Positions 3,621 through 10,786 of a stretch of 12,363 nucleotides of DNA are shown here, one piece after another. The translations under genes were made by a program, and so were the position numbers. This stretch comes from Rickettsia sp. (lineage in GTDB: Bacteria; Pseudomonadota; Alphaproteobacteria; Rickettsiales; Rickettsiaceae): assembly GCA_031254535.1 (NCBI GenBank), contig JAIRUG010000079.1, forward strand, positions 1 through 12,363, written 5' to 3'. The notes beneath the pieces are model-generated. The model had not been told where the DNA came from, did not search any database, and saw only the letters and a program-made list of their open reading frames with translations. How positions within the stretch are numbered: the stretch's first letter is position 1; each line of letters starts with the position of its first letter.

Positions 3621-3795
3621 AAAAATTCTAATATAGCTAACCCGAATAGGCTTTTGATATTGTTATAAATTCCCAAATATCATTGCGAGAAGGCGTAGCC
3701 GACGAAGCAATCCATGAAACTTGTCATATGGATTGCTTCGTCGGCTACGCCTTCTCGCAATGACATAACCTGGAACATTAACGGGTTAGCTATAT
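3621..3795 (-). terminator. Presumed gatB-tsaD terminator stem, split by an inserted palindrome
   Basis: ATATAGCTAACCCG (minus strand 3795-3782, covering the last codons and stop of tsaD) is the exact reverse complement of minus-strand 3644-3631. This gives a 14-bp stem. On the minus strand the second arm is followed by TAGAATTTTT, with five Ts, as in a rho-independent terminator. The two arms are now 137 bases apart because they enclose the palindromic element at 3680-3763. A terminator role is inference. Confidence 0.45.
3680..3763. repeat. Rickettsial-type palindromic repeat, near-perfect
   Basis: Bases 3681-3715 and 3728-3762 are exact reverse complements over 35 bp (36 bp counting the flanking T/A pair). 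A 12-base loop separates them. The outer end is CATTGCGAGAAGG and the inner end is GCAATCCAT. The same end sequences recur in the elements at 6313-6421, 9783-9874 and 9883-9953. It contains no start codon or domain and is not a gene. It is a dispersed intergenic element, expected to be copied by an unknown route. Confidence 0.9.
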
Positions 3796-4826
3796 AAATC
3801 CTCTAAGCTCCATTTTGCTCTAGGGCAGAAATTGAATGAGTTAGTAAGATTATTTTGCAAACGTTCTAGCCCAGCATAAGCGATCATAGCAGCATTATCG
3901 GTACATAAATGTGCTGGCGGTACTAAAAGTACATATCCCTGTTTTTCTGCTTGATGCTTAAGTATAGTTTTCAAATAAGCATTAGCGGCAACTCCACCGG
4001 CAAGCACGCAGGTTTTTTGTGATAATGCCGACTTACCGATAAATTTCTCATACATTGTAAAGCTATTAAGCATTTTTATTGATAAGATTTCTCCAACTAC
4101 ATATTGAAAGCTGGCAGCTATATCATTAATCTCTTGACCACCTATAGGTTGTAATTTGGATATTAATATCCGTACTGCTGTCTTTAAACCTGAAAATGAC
4201 ATATCACAGCCAGCTTGATGAATAATAGGCTTTGGCAAAATATACTTAAATGGATTGCCAAATTTTGCTCTTCTCTCAATTTCTACCCCTCCAGGGAAAG
4301 GTAAATTCAGCATTTTAGCTACTTTATCAAAGCATTCTCCTACCGAATCATCGATAGTTTGTCCTAAAATTTTATACTTACCCAACGCTTGGACAGCAAC
4401 AAATTGGCAATGCCCTCCTGAAACCAACAGGAATAGATAAGGGTACTCAGCCTTATTGGTTAATCTAGCAGTAAGTAAATGTCCCTCTAAATGGTTAACT
4501 GCAATAAAGGCCTTCTTTAAGACACTAGCAACTATTCTGCCAAACATTGAGCCAACTATCACCCCACCTATCAAGCCAGGACCAGAAGTAGCTGCGATTC
4601 CGTCTATATTGGATAGTTCAAGATGAGCTTCATCTAAAACATATCTAACTGCTTTTTCTAAATTTTGCAAATGCGATCTGGCAGCAATCTCCGGTACTAC
4701 CCCTTGAAAAGCCTTATGTTCTTGGTGCTGGGAAATAACAATATTTGATAAAATCTCTTTGTTTGAGGTAACTATTGCTACGCCAGTATCATCGCAACTT
4801 GACTCAATACCTAATATTTTAATTAT
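3786..4826 (-). CDS. tsaD: tRNA N6-threonylcarbamoyladenosine synthase subunit TsaD, non-canonical ATA start
   Basis: TsaD (Gcp/Kae1) transfers threonylcarbamoyl to A37 of ANN-decoding tRNAs, with TsaB, TsaE and TsaC. The frame encodes 346 residues beginning (M)[14 protein letters not shown], the exact family N-terminus, and includes [11 protein letters not shown] (42-52). The metal-binding HLEGH has its histidines at 112 and 116. Then come SGGHCQFV, the conserved C-terminal [11 protein letters not shown] and a closing [11 protein letters not shown]. The codon where Met belongs is ATA (4826-4824); the next is ATT. An in-frame TGA lies nine codons before the ATA, and there is no ATG, GTG or TTG before TTG at codon 53. 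AAGGAG (4840-4835) sits eight bases before the ATA, the ideal spacing. The ATA overlaps the gatB stop as ATAA, and an ancestral ATGA overlap is the simple explanation. Starting at codon 53 would delete the first nucleotide-binding motif. Confidence 0.93.
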
Positions 4827-6271
4827 TGTAATTTCTCCTTTAATAAATCATTCACTAGGTTAGGGTTTGCTTTTCCTTCAGTTTTTTTCATTACTTGTCC
4901 AACAAAAAAACCAAATAACTTATCCTTACCACTTCTATAGGCGGCAACAGAGTCAGGATTTTCTAACAATATTCCGTCAATTATAGCAGTTAGTATATCA
5001 CTATTTGACACTTGCACTAAGTCCTTTTCTTTAATAATTTTTTCCGGATCTTCTCCAGTTTCAAACATAGTTTCGAAAACTACTTTGGCAATCTTTCCTG
5101 AAATCACCCCATCTTCTATTAGTTTTACCATTTGACCAAGCATTTTCGGGGTAATTTTACATTCATTTAAGCTAATGGAATTTTTATTAAGCTGACCAAA
5201 TAACTCACTAATAATCCAATTAGCAAGTATTTTGGGATTGCATAAGCCAACTGCTGCTTCGAAATAATATGCCACCTGCTCATCAGCTACCAGAACTTCA
5301 GCATCATATGCACTTAAACCATACTCTGTCATATATCTTTGAATTTTTGCATCTGGCAGTTCTGGCAAATCTCTAGCCAATTGTTCTATTAACTCCTCAG
5401 ATATAACTATTGGCAATAAATCTGGATCAGGAAAATATCGATAGTCATGAGATTCTTCTTTTAAACGCATCGTTCTAGTTTCACCAGTGTCAGCATCAAA
5501 CAGTCTAGTCTCCTGTATTATTGTCTGCCCAGCTTCAATTAAATTTACTTGCCTATTTGCTTCAAACTCTATTGCTCGCATAATATTACGAATCGAATTG
5601 ATATTCTTGATCTCACACCTTATGCCAAGTGGATCCCCAGCAAGCCTGACTGAAACATTAGCATCGCAACGCAATGAGCCTTTTTCCATATCGCCATCAC
5701 AACTTCCTATATACCTCAACAAAGTCCTGAGTTTGCGAACAAATTTAGCCGTATCTTCCGGCGAATCAAGATCTGGTTCAGTAACAATTTCCATTAATCC
5801 TATACCAGATCGGTTTAAATCAATGAAGCTGTAATAAGGAGATTGATCATGGATGGACTTACCAGCATCTTGTTCTAAATGCACACGATTAATTCTGATC
5901 CTTTTGGTTGTTCTCTGTTCAGTTACTATATCCAAATAACCATCTTGAACGATTGGATGATAGAATTGTGATACTTGATAGCCCTGCGGTAGATCCGGAT
6001 AAAAGTAATTCTTACGATCAAATCTTGAATTAAGATTAATTTTTGCCTTAAGTCCAAGACCAGTTTTAATTACCTGATGGACACAATGTTCATTTAACAT
6101 TGGTAGCATTCCAGGCATTGCTGCATCAATCAAAGATACTTGTGAATTAGGAGGAGCAGCAAATTCGGTAGAACTACCAGAGAAAAGTTTGGATTTTGAA
6201 GAAATTTGGGCATGAATCTCGACGCCTATCACATATTGCCATCTACCTGTATTACCAATAATATAAGCCAT
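4823..6271 (-). CDS. gatB: Aspartyl/glutamyl-tRNA(Asn/Gln) amidotransferase subunit B
   Basis: GatB is the kinase/tRNA-binding subunit of GatCAB, which converts mischarged Glu-tRNA(Gln) and Asp-tRNA(Asn) to the correct amides. Alphaproteobacteria lacking GlnRS depend on it. The 482-residue protein is full length. It has VIGVEIHAQ (14-22), [13 protein letters not shown] (about 155-167) and the GatB signature [19 protein letters not shown] near residues 190-210. The C-terminal helical YqeY-like tail ([20 protein letters not shown]) is also complete. The ATG has an AAAGAGA Shine-Dalgarno. It is the first gene of a unit with tsaD, which overlaps its stop. Unlike the Rickettsia arrangement I remember, no gatC or gatA precedes it; upstream is a palindromic repeat and an oppositely oriented accessory gene. 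Confidence 0.97.
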
Positions 6272-6947: not shown

Positions 6948-9725
6948 ATGCCATTATCACTATTTAACAAAACATCACCTGAAAGTAAGAAAGCAAAACA
7001 AGAGCACTTTAAAAAAAAGGTTAGTAATTTGTTCCAAGAATATGGCAATACACAGGCAATTAGTACACCTTTTGATAAAGAGGCGTATAAAGTACTTAAG
7101 AAAGAATATGACCCATTACTAAATAAGATAGAGGATACTCAATCACTTTTTGAGTTAAACAAATCTCTAGCCATTATTGCTCTCCGAGCAGGTCAAGATG
7201 CAAGTACATATTTAAAGATGTGGGAGAAGACTAATATTAATTCAAGTGACTTTATAACAGAACTACAAACAATCCTTGAAGGTCGCATTAAATTTCTTCA
7301 AGAAACTGGCAATATAACAAAAATTAATACGCCTCTTGATTCATCGGAATATAAGTCAAATAATATCATACGTGATAATTTAGTTAAAACTATAAAAGAG
7401 TCTCCACTTTCAGGTGAGATCAGAGCAAAACTATCTTTTGAGTTAAACAAGTGTCAAGCTATTAGTGTTTTCCGAGCAGGCCAAAACGCAAGTACATATT
7501 TAAAGGGGTGTGGTAGCCTTAGTGCTAGTAGAAATGAGTTTATAATAGAACTATACAAAGTACTAACAAATATGCAAAATTCAGAACTAGTAGTACAAAA
7601 TATTTATAAACAAATATATTATCCATTGGTACAACAAGCCTTAAATGCAGTGGATTCACACCTTAAAACTTCAGAAGAAAACTATGTTGCAGCTTTTAAT
7701 GAGATAACACCTTTGGTAGCAAATTGCAACATTCCTAAAGTACTTGCAAAATATGTCGAGATTTGTATAAAAGAAGGTACACTCTCGAAACTTGAGCAAT
7801 GTTGGAAAGTTTGTACTGAAACAATAGTTAACCGTACAAAAGAAGATAAAGTTCTTGCTAAAATCTTTGGAGATTTACAGAAGAAGTTTAAACAGGTATC
7901 TCTATCTGATGATAAAGCTATTGATCAAAAGACTAAGCTTCAGTACAGTGATCTTACTGATCAAGCTGGGGAGCGTGCTAAACAACATAGCCCTCAGCCT
8001 CAGATACAGGAAACAGCTGCTCCTGTAAGCAGGGAAGAAGAAATAGCATGCAAAGAACTTGAAAAAGCAAAAGAGAAAGCAAAGCAAGCTATTACACAAG
8101 TTGTTACTACTGAAGCTAGGGTTGCAGAAATCAAGGTAGAGCAGCAATATAAAGCTAAATTAGAAGCCAAAACAGCTAAAGTTAAAGCTGAACTCGATGC
8201 TGAAAGAGAGCAAAATAAACTCCAAATCAAAGATGAAACAAAATCTAAATTAGAGGAAATACAAAGTGAAGGTTCATCTAAAGATACTTTAATTACACTC
8301 ACTGCCTCTTCAAAGTCGAATTCTCAGCATACAGAAATAGTTAAAAATAAAGATGTTTCAGAGTCGCTTCCTCCGACATATACCCCCATCTATCCGGATA
8401 TTAGTGAATATAATATGTCTTTAGAAGGTAATCAAACTGTCCCTACACCAAGTGTTGTACCTACTCCTATAACTAATGTCGATACTAATACCACAGCACT
8501 AGTAAAAGAGGTAACTGAGCTTTTTGATTCAAGAGCACCAGGTGTTATGGATCAAACTTTAGAAGGTAATCAAACTGTCTCTATACCAAGTGTTGTACCT
8601 ACTCCTACAACTAATGTCAGTACTAATGCCGCAGAGCTAGTAGAAGAGGTAACGGAGCTTCCTGATTCAAAAACATCAGATGTTATGGGTCAAACTTTAG
8701 AAAGTAATCAAACTGGTGTTGTACCTATTCCTACAACTAATGTCAGTGCTGATGCCACAGAGCTAGTAAAAAAGGTAACGGAACTTCTTGATTCAGGAAC
8801 ACCAAGTGCTAAGGATCAAATTGTAGTACTTTGTAATAATACTATTAAGAGCGGCTTTAATGCATATGAAATCATTGATGATTTAAAAGTTTTGAAGGCT
8901 TTAGCTTCTGGATTTTTATCTGTAAAGAACCCGGAAAAAGCTAAAGAAATAGCAGAAGCTGCTGAAAAAATTTGTGGTAAAATTGTTAAAATATCTCAAG
9001 ATGAATATAATCTCATTTGGGACAGTAAAGTTTTGAATTTATTAGCTAAGGAATATTATGAATTAGGACTCTATAACAATTGTATTGAATCTTGTAAAAA
9101 ATCATATGAGTGTAACAAGATAGCTTCTGAAGAGCATTATCAAATCTTAAAAGAAATAGCAGACAAAACAACAAGTCCAGATATACAACTTGCTGCCCTT
9201 AATGCCGCTAAAAATCAAACAAACGACTTAAAACAGAAAGGTGAACTCTCTTTCTCTAGAGCTAAGATTTTATTGTCTTTAGGAAATAATAATACTGAAG
9301 CTACAAATGAGTGTGAAAATGCTGCTTGTTATAATCCCAGTATATATAAAAATCTTGATGAGGAAACTTTAAAGAGCATATATGACAAAACAAAAAATTC
9401 TGTAGCAGGGTATATCTACTTCTCTAATCACAACAATCATAACTTTGGGAATCAAGCTCTTGCTGAAAAATTTAAAGAAATTGGTTACAATATACTTCTA
9501 ACAATTGGCCATTCAGGAACAGCACTATGTGCTATGAAAGCTTTTCTTTGTTCTCACGACAGAGCTATATTGGACAGTGGTCTATGGGGTATGGGACTGT
9601 CATCACCCTATTACACAAATTATGCAAAAATTCCACATAACGACTTCAATCAGTTAGATAATTACTGCAGAACTCTTATTGGGGAGCTTGAGTCTGATAT
9701 GTATAGTGGAATACATTTGAATTAG
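6948..9725 (+). CDS. Unrecognised 925-residue repeat and coiled-coil protein, possible effector
   Basis: I do not recognise this protein. It has no signal peptide or membrane segment. An N-terminal module of about 90 residues occurs twice (about 29-112 and 116-207), each copy with FELNKs.AI...RAGQ(D/N)ASTYLK; these match strongly at the DNA level too. A helical stretch follows to about 320. A highly charged, Lys/Glu/Ala-rich coiled coil covers about 360-445. Three Pro/Thr/Val-rich tandem repeats cover about 492-625. The C-terminal part (about 630-870) is helical with TPR-like pairs such as LLAKEYYELGLYNNCIESCKKSY, and the last 55 residues are rich in Tyr, Gly and Asn. The ATG has AGAGGA four bases upstream of the preceding TATT spacer. 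Palindromic repeats lie on both sides. A host-directed effector is only a guess from architecture. Confidence 0.85.
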   Translation: MPLSLFNKTSPESKKAKQEHFKKKVSNLFQEYGNTQAISTPFDKEAYKVLKKEYDPLLNKIEDTQSLFELNKSLAIIALRAGQDASTYLKMWEKTNINSSDFITELQTILEGRIKFLQETGNITKINTPLDSSEYKSNNIIRDNLVKTIKESPLSGEIRAKLSFELNKCQAISVFRAGQNASTYLKGCGSLSASRNEFIIELYKVLTNMQNSELVVQNIYKQIYYPLVQQALNAVDSHLKTSEENYVAAFNEITPLVANCNIPKVLAKYVEICIKEGTLSKLEQCWKVCTETIVNRTKEDKVLAKIFGDLQKKFKQVSLSDDKAIDQKTKLQYSDLTDQAGERAKQHSPQPQIQETAAPVSREEEIACKELEKAKEKAKQAITQVVTTEARVAEIKVEQQYKAKLEAKTAKVKAELDAEREQNKLQIKDETKSKLEEIQSEGSSKDTLITLTASSKSNSQHTEIVKNKDVSESLPPTYTPIYPDISEYNMSLEGNQTVPTPSVVPTPITNVDTNTTALVKEVTELFDSRAPGVMDQTLEGNQTVSIPSVVPTPTTNVSTNAAELVEEVTELPDSKTSDVMGQTLESNQTGVVPIPTTNVSADATELVKKVTELLDSGTPSAKDQIVVLCNNTIKSGFNAYEIIDDLKVLKALASGFLSVKNPEKAKEIAEAAEKICGKIVKISQDEYNLIWDSKVLNLLAKEYYELGLYNNCIESCKKSYECNKIASEEHYQILKEIADKTTSPDIQLAALNAAKNQTNDLKQKGELSFSRAKILLSLGNNNTEATNECENAACYNPSIYKNLDEETLKSIYDKTKNSVAGYIYFSNHNNHNFGNQALAEKFKEIGYNILLTIGHSGTALCAMKAFLCSHDRAILDSGLWGMGLSSPYYTNYAKIPHNDFNQLDNYCRTLIGELESDMYSGIHLN
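8421..8822 (+). repeat. Three in-frame tandem repeats (138, 138 and about 126 bp)
   Basis: Units start at 8421, 8559 and 8697. The first two are exactly 138 bp apart, encoding 46 residues each. The third lacks a 12-bp piece after AATCAAACTG, which removes four residues and keeps the frame. Each unit encodes LE(G/S)NQT, a VVP.P(I/T)TNV segment, then a short helix ending in VTEL.DS. The copies are close in DNA sequence, so the array is young and probably varies in copy number between strains. Confidence 0.88.
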
Positions 9726-10036: not shown

Positions 10037-10786
10037 ATGAATAAATATTTAACATTAATAATGTTATTAACAATGCCACATAATTCATTTGCTCAACAAC
10101 AAATATCTAATTTTGTTACACCAGTTACTTATTTTGTCGATCATGTCAAACAATTAAATCTACTTAAGAATAATTTAATTAAATATCGACAAGCAAGTAT
10201 TGTAGGCACCAGCGGCATGGGGAAAACACAACTTACTAGAATGTATTGTTATGAGAATCAAAATAATTACAAACTTATTTGGCTTATTGACTGTAATTTA
10301 GATATTGATGAAGAGTTGCTAAAGCTAGCAAAAGCTATTAATAGTACTGATAAATCTAATCTAATATTATCAGAAGATATAACATTAATACGAAAAGAAA
10401 TAATGAACTATTTATTGAATCAAGATAAATGGTTGCTGGTATTCGATAACTTAAAGATAAGTGAAAATAAAAAAGTTCAAGAGTTTATTGATTGGGAACA
10501 TAACGGGCACGTTATATTTTGTTCCCAAGATAGTGAAATATTACCTAATATAATCAAAATGACTGCCTTTGAAAAAAGTGAAGCCATTATTCTAGCTAAT
10601 AATCTTCTAGAAAATAATGATACCAAATTAGCAAAATTCTTGAGCAAAGAATTTGCTGGTTATCCTATCATGATAGTACAAGGTGCACAATTATTAAACA
10701 ATGTACAAGGTTTAGGTAAAAAGGAATATAAGGAAAAGATCCACCAATCAACAGACAAAATTAAATATTACATTAGTTATCAATGA
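10037..10786 (+). CDS. N-terminal piece: signal peptide and NB-ARC-like ATPase domain
   Basis: This open frame of 249 codons has a good start: ATG with AGAGGA five bases upstream. Residues 1-19 form a signal peptide (MNKYLTLIMLLTMPHNSFA, probable cleavage after A19). The ATPase domain follows, with Walker A GTSGMGKT (57-64), Walker B LLVFDNL (133-139), an NB-ARC sensor-like GHVIFCSQD (157-165) and a GLPL-like AGYPIMIVQGAQLL near 206-220. The last residues (about 240 on, YYISYQ) are out of frame. The natural continuation is in the next frame (LNITLVINELKPSTKKLLNK). If expressed as it stands, the product would be an ATPase domain without its repeats. Confidence 0.75.
   Translation: MNKYLTLIMLLTMPHNSFAQQQISNFVTPVTYFVDHVKQLNLLKNNLIKYRQASIVGTSGMGKTQLTRMYCYENQNNYKLIWLIDCNLDIDEELLKLAKAINSTDKSNLILSEDITLIRKEIMNYLLNQDKWLLVFDNLKISENKKVQEFIDWEHNGHVIFCSQDSEILPNIIKMTAFEKSEAIILANNLLENNDTKLAKFLSKEFAGYPIMIVQGAQLLNNVQGLGKKEYKEKIHQSTDKIKYYISYQ

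Follow-up and report, generated by a model that had tools for sequence, protein, structure and literature searches.

In a clade of the insect-dwelling Torix group of Rickettsia, a group that has been named 'Candidatus Tisiphia' (PMC9098888), tsaD, which encodes a tRNA-modifying enzyme, is very probably intact and expressed from a near-cognate start codon that has become fixed; taken as a whole, this is the reading that best explains the sequences we compared. The window (the whole stretch of DNA analysed, 12,363 nucleotides) is contig 45 of a draft assembly (725 kb, 110 contigs, 68% complete), and in it tsaD follows gatB on the minus strand (Table 1). On that strand the 3' end of gatB reads TTA AAG GAG AAA TTA CAA TAA, and the tsaD frame from 4826 reads ATA ATT AAA ATA TTA GGT ATT GAG TCA AGT. 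An earlier note on this DNA had described an ATA at the start position of tsaD that overlaps the gatB stop (ATAA), an AAGGAG placed eight bases before it, and a tsaD frame with no ATG, GTG or TTG until codon 53. We could confirm each of these in the window, counting the eight bases between GGAG and ATA; only the in-frame TGA upstream, which the note had put nine codons off, is in fact eight codons before ATA (4850-4848). The product scores 391.4 bits against the curated TsaD model TIGR03723 (cut-off 296.1), and the region covered by the model includes codons 4-52.

From this arrangement we infer how translation of tsaD may begin. Ribosomes would bind the AAAGGAG in the final gatB codons, would have just terminated at the overlapping gatB UAA, or both, and the initiator tRNA would then read AUA or the next codon, AUU. 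The product would be full-length TsaD (346 or 345 residues in the window), made at a low rate, with the Shine-Dalgarno (SD) motif and the stop/start overlap compensating for the poor start codon.

Elsewhere in the window, both on the plus strand, are an open frame of 925 aa with a repetitive Thr/Pro-rich middle (6948-9725) and a frame of 249 aa with a GMGKT nucleotide-binding-like motif (10037-10786).

Table 1. Features of the gatB-tsaD junction in the window.
Feature	Position	Strand	Remarks
tsaD	3786..4826	-	346 codons counted from ATA, then the stop (3788-3786); 4826-3789 without the stop; TIGR03723
ATA, most likely start codon	4824..4826	-	shares its final two bases with the beginning of the gatB TAA
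ATT, second candidate start codon	4821..4823	-	codon 2 of the tsaD frame
gatB stop TAA	4823..4825	-	TAA at this residue in G003, G010 and G011 too
AAAGGAG SD motif	4835..4841	-	within the final gatB codons
gatB, 482 aa	4823..6271	-	NCBIfam GatB model, above cut-off
TTG codon 53	4668..4670	-	earliest ATG, GTG or TTG of the tsaD frame; start here rejected

Spread and history of the junction

The ATAATT overlap is identical in 12 of 16 genomes of the genus, the window's own genome included, and is absent from the remaining four (G003, G007, G010 and G011). Among its carriers is the chromosome of RiCimp (CP084573.1), which is described as a complete genome built with long reads (PMC9098888). In a scan of named public genomes from which 80 loci were kept, all five near relatives (Rickettsia endosymbionts or Rickettsia sp., 95-97% protein identity) carry ATAATT; these five are G002, G005, G008, G012 and G013, all of them among the 16 genus genomes. 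Each of the 12 genomes has a single tsaD match at E<=0.001. In a tsaD tree of 24 proteins, which leaves out G007 (fragment only), the 12 form one clade with support of 100/100, and G011 together with (G003+G010) forms its sister group (95/88).

Outside the clade, a normal codon is found near the tsaD start in 36 of 37 loci, and in G011, G003 and G007 that start is ATG. The one exception is G010, whose tsaD has no normal codon before a GTG at clade position 43; in the alignment, a CTG of G010 pairs with the ATG of G003, and an ATT pairs with clade codon 2.

The earlier note had traced the overlap to a single ATGA-to-ATAA transition and had pointed to the same junction in related genomes as a check. 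The comparison yields no such ancestor. In the 12 clade genomes and in G003, G010 and G011, gatB stops with TAA at the identical residue, and in G007 it stops one codon earlier with TAG; a TGA stage of the gatB stop overlapping a tsaD ATG was seen in none of the 12 clade genomes, G003, G007, G010 and G011. The stretch from the end of the gatB stop to the conserved Gly of tsaD measures 11 nt in the clade, against 25 in G010, 29 in G011 and 241 in G007, and in G003 tsaD lies elsewhere in the genome rather than behind gatB. Because relatives keep TAA and the stop-to-Gly distance differs, an indel fits better than a transition, and the older tsaD start was probably lost through one that fell between the gatB stop and the body of tsaD. 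The direction of this change is unpolarised, since the tsaD loci of eight outgroup genomes yielded no matching gatB end alongside.

A general ATGA-to-ATAA habit in these genomes was also considered and was rejected on junction counts. Between confirmed genes of RiCimp, scored in the downstream frame, there are 27 ATGA and 6 ATAA junctions, and the 960 kb of G010 hold 24 and 6. Of the six ATAA junctions of RiCimp, that of tsaD is the sole one with a downstream gene among the 35 pairs flagged by the orthologue screen below.

Two further observations concern tsaD in other genomes. In sister-genus genomes G088, G089, G092, G094, G102, G103, G105, G107, G108 and G109, the tsaD matches are split in two within open frames of 386-434 aa, which implies an in-frame insert around residues 231-268, presumably such as Rickettsia palindromic elements would give. 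Separately, the fly Pseudolycoriella hygida has an entry for a 74% identical TsaD (P0008), placed on a 193 Mb contig, which reflects either a transfer into an insect chromosome or an assembly mix.

Shine-Dalgarno motif and other genes without a normal start

AAAGGAG, with its GGAG eight bases from ATA, is found in 11 of the 12 clade genomes, G005 having the weaker AAAGAG. The motif can pair with 16S rRNA, as the tail of the latter reads GGATTACCTCCTTT in G008 and G010. Over the last 300 gatB codons there are 17 conserved Lys columns, and the one in the SD alone ends in G in 11 or more of the 12 genomes; the GAG half is not unusual, since the same holds for six of the 24 conserved Glu columns. 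Lys-Glu pairs of RiCimp are written AAGGAG in 53 of 770 cases. Judged by codon usage, the SD is retained against codon preference in 11 of the 12 genomes; counting against this, gatB of G007 ends in AAG GAG too, though its tsaD is 241 nt off. Folding of the junction RNA revealed no structure beyond that of shuffles (z 0.86).

We screened orthologues of the whole RiCimp chromosome against G010 (960 of 1601 kb) using non-overlapping frames, which gave 539 pairs, or 443 after dropping those with identity <50% or an alignment <70 residues. In 35 of the 443, one genome or the other had no normal start close to where homology begins. By our reading, the N-terminus is conserved and a usable normal start is lacking in four of these: tsaD, infC, a short RNase D-like exonuclease gene and prfB, which we take to be the frame after the usual prfB frameshift. 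The remaining flagged pairs look to us like fragments, mobile pieces or alignments with an early or late onset. A second screen, for a near-cognate codon with an SD in both genomes (454 pairs), returned six pairs, comprising infC, the exonuclease and four others that overlap normal starts or fragments; tsaD is missing from it because G010 is without the overlap.

The start of infC (L272-L287) could be read in 13 of the 16 genomes (G006, G009 and G011 were not matched by our patterns). In 12 of these it is ATT, seven bases from GGAG, and G001 has ATC/ATT at 5/8. The comparison with infC that the earlier note had drawn is thus apt, as infC starts with ATT in the same genomes. The exonuclease gene (L288-L301) was recovered complete in 14 of the 16 genomes, with none in G000 and only a distant match in G007. 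It carries AGGAGG followed, after five bases, by ATT in nine of the 14, ATC in two and ATA in two; G011 has ATG at the start position, without the AGGAGG. Codon 4 is its likely start because two genomes have ACT as codon 6, and the GTG that G010 has at codon 2 lies within the SD. The protein matches PF01612 and scores 80.7 bits against the RNase D model TIGR01388 (cut-off 299), so it is RNase D-like only. In RiCimp, the spacing of GGAG from the start is 8 bases for tsaD, 7 for infC and 6 for the RNase D-like gene; among 254 normally started genes with co-aligned starts, GGAG occurs within 22 nt in 24 and at a spacing of 5-8 in 13.

Alternative readings of the tsaD start

A weak start may have been fixed by chance in the ancestor of the clade, lowering TsaD and being merely tolerated, with no control purpose. 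This is compatible with our best explanation of initiation, and we put its chances at about even. Symbiont genomes of this kind are small, and the constancy of ATA and ATT had to be rejected as evidence, because 19 of the 23 Ile columns of tsaD are invariant in the clade. A similar single change may be seen in a gene beside an uppS-like gene in G010, which has ATA where RiCimp has ATG and which we call cdsA-like from its neighbours and sequence, not from a model. That ATA lies within a longer overlap without touching a stop, and the change of start is ambiguous because a TTG follows at codon 10. Set against chance fixation are the retention of the SD and the existence of two comparable genes, also with an SD.

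Within our preferred explanation, AUA is the probable initiation codon of tsaD. AUU is a weaker candidate: tsaD might start at codon 2, as infC does in the same genomes, with ATA being merely the overlap with the gatB stop. Met1 of the solved enteric TsaD aligns with ATT (residue 3 of the query pairs with its residue 2), and ATT is present at the equivalent place in G010. However, a start at ATT would put GGAG at a spacing of 11 rather than 8, the tsaD ATG of the sister genus aligns with the clade ATA, and two public TsaD proteins (P0001 and P0002; 94 and 89% identity, 344 aa, beginning MIKILG) seem, from the protein alone, to place Met on ATA. The view of the earlier note that a near-cognate start with a good SD is the likeliest reading of tsaD is supported.

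Initiation at a later normal codon, yielding a shortened enzyme, is improbable. None of the 12 clade frames has ATG, GTG or TTG at the start position or in frame upstream, and such codons do occur further in: the first is codon 5 in two genomes (TTG in G001 and G009), codon 16 in two (GTG in G004 and G005), codon 43-44 in six and codon 53 in two. A shortened tsaD start is possible in G001, G009, G004 and G005 on the basis of these codons, and one public protein (P0036, from a 1,601,456-base contig) is annotated from a GTG, at 302 aa and about 42 residues late. Against a later start, the candidate codons vary from genome to genome, codons 4-52 fall within the TsaD model, and across the 12 distinct clade sequences codons 1-52 have pS 0.258, pN 0.018 and pN/pS 0.070, compared with a pN/pS of 0.132 from codon 53 to the end. 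Because codons 1-52 are under such strong purifying selection, the N-terminus is, by this measure, translated. Initiation at TTG codon 53, which the earlier note had weighed, is accordingly rejected, those codons being more constrained than the rest and codon 53 being TTA in one of the 12 genomes. The pN/pS values also led us to reject a pseudogene. TsaE is present in all 16 genus genomes and the TsaC/Sua5 family in 14, the two misses being assemblies of 68% and 75% completeness.

A GatB-TsaD fusion made by frameshifting at the end of gatB might be suggested by the SD-like AAGGAG and the overlapping frames, but it is very unlikely, as inspection reveals no slippery run before CAA TAA, and in G010 and G011 tsaD follows the stop at 25-29 nt and out of the clade's frame. 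A sequencing or assembly error at 4824, raised by the earlier note and conceivable in a draft of 110 contigs, has a negligible chance of being correct, because the same bases are found in 11 further genomes, the complete RiCimp among them.

Known near-cognate starts and the role of IF3

The tsaD junction shares features with several known systems. E. coli pcnB, a different gene, likewise has an AUU start, which reportedly limits its expression; we know of no stop/start overlap there. ATGA overlaps, in which a stop and a start share bases, are the counterpart in that respect, except that tsaD has ATAA and its relatives are without a TGA stage. The gene for IF3, infC (AUU, AUC or AUA), resembles tsaD in having a near-cognate start, no normal in-frame codon upstream and a clear SD. 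In E. coli, feedback on infC by its own product has been shown, and infC is described as a case in which IF3 represses a non-canonical start (PMC5472188), whereas no such feedback is evident for TsaD. The closest measured precedent comes from S. aureus, where ccpN (AUA), cvfC1 (AUU) and infC (AUA) are described as having conserved starts with an extended SD, mapped by ribosome profiling; the ccpN and cvfC1 starts were tested in reporters, and AUA and AUU starts gave a lower yield (PMC13009471). These are other genes with mapped starts, whereas the tsaD start is predicted from sequence. Streptomyces sigR, for which IF3 repression is reported as shown (PMC5472188), also has a conserved non-canonical start misplaced by annotation, and differs from tsaD in that its codon is GTC. 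We found no literature naming a non-canonical tsaD start in the title or opening of the abstract, and nothing on RNase D with a UUG start. Most likely, tsaD joins the known AUA- and AUU-start genes with a strong SD, and its weak start is driven by that SD together with coupling to gatB.

An altered initiator tRNA was tried as an explanation and rejected. RiCimp has three tRNA-Met (CAT) genes, and the initiator anticodon stem-loop is identical in 29 of 30 family loci read (one was not matched by our pattern), so that it is ordinary for the family with nothing specific to the clade. IF3 has both of its domains and was found in all 16 genus genomes, and control of tsaD by IF3 is plausible. More speculatively, and rather unlikely on present evidence, 'Ca. 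Tisiphia' may keep a small set of genes with an AUH start and an SD (infC, tsaD and the RNase D-like gene), through which the level or fidelity of IF3 would set tRNA-modification output and perhaps the trimming of RNA 3' ends. If so, the wandering of the exonuclease start among AUU, AUC and AUA (AUG in one of 14 genomes) would reflect selection for any weak AUH start, not for one codon.

The late GTG start given to P0036 is an example of how gene calling can err at near-cognate starts. For the symbionts themselves, the finding would mean that a broadly needed translation gene runs on a near-cognate start across a whole clade, with its SD visibly kept. Together, infC, tsaD and the RNase D-like exonuclease gene provide a concrete, testable set with which to ask whether, in reduced genomes, IF3 acts on genes other than infC.
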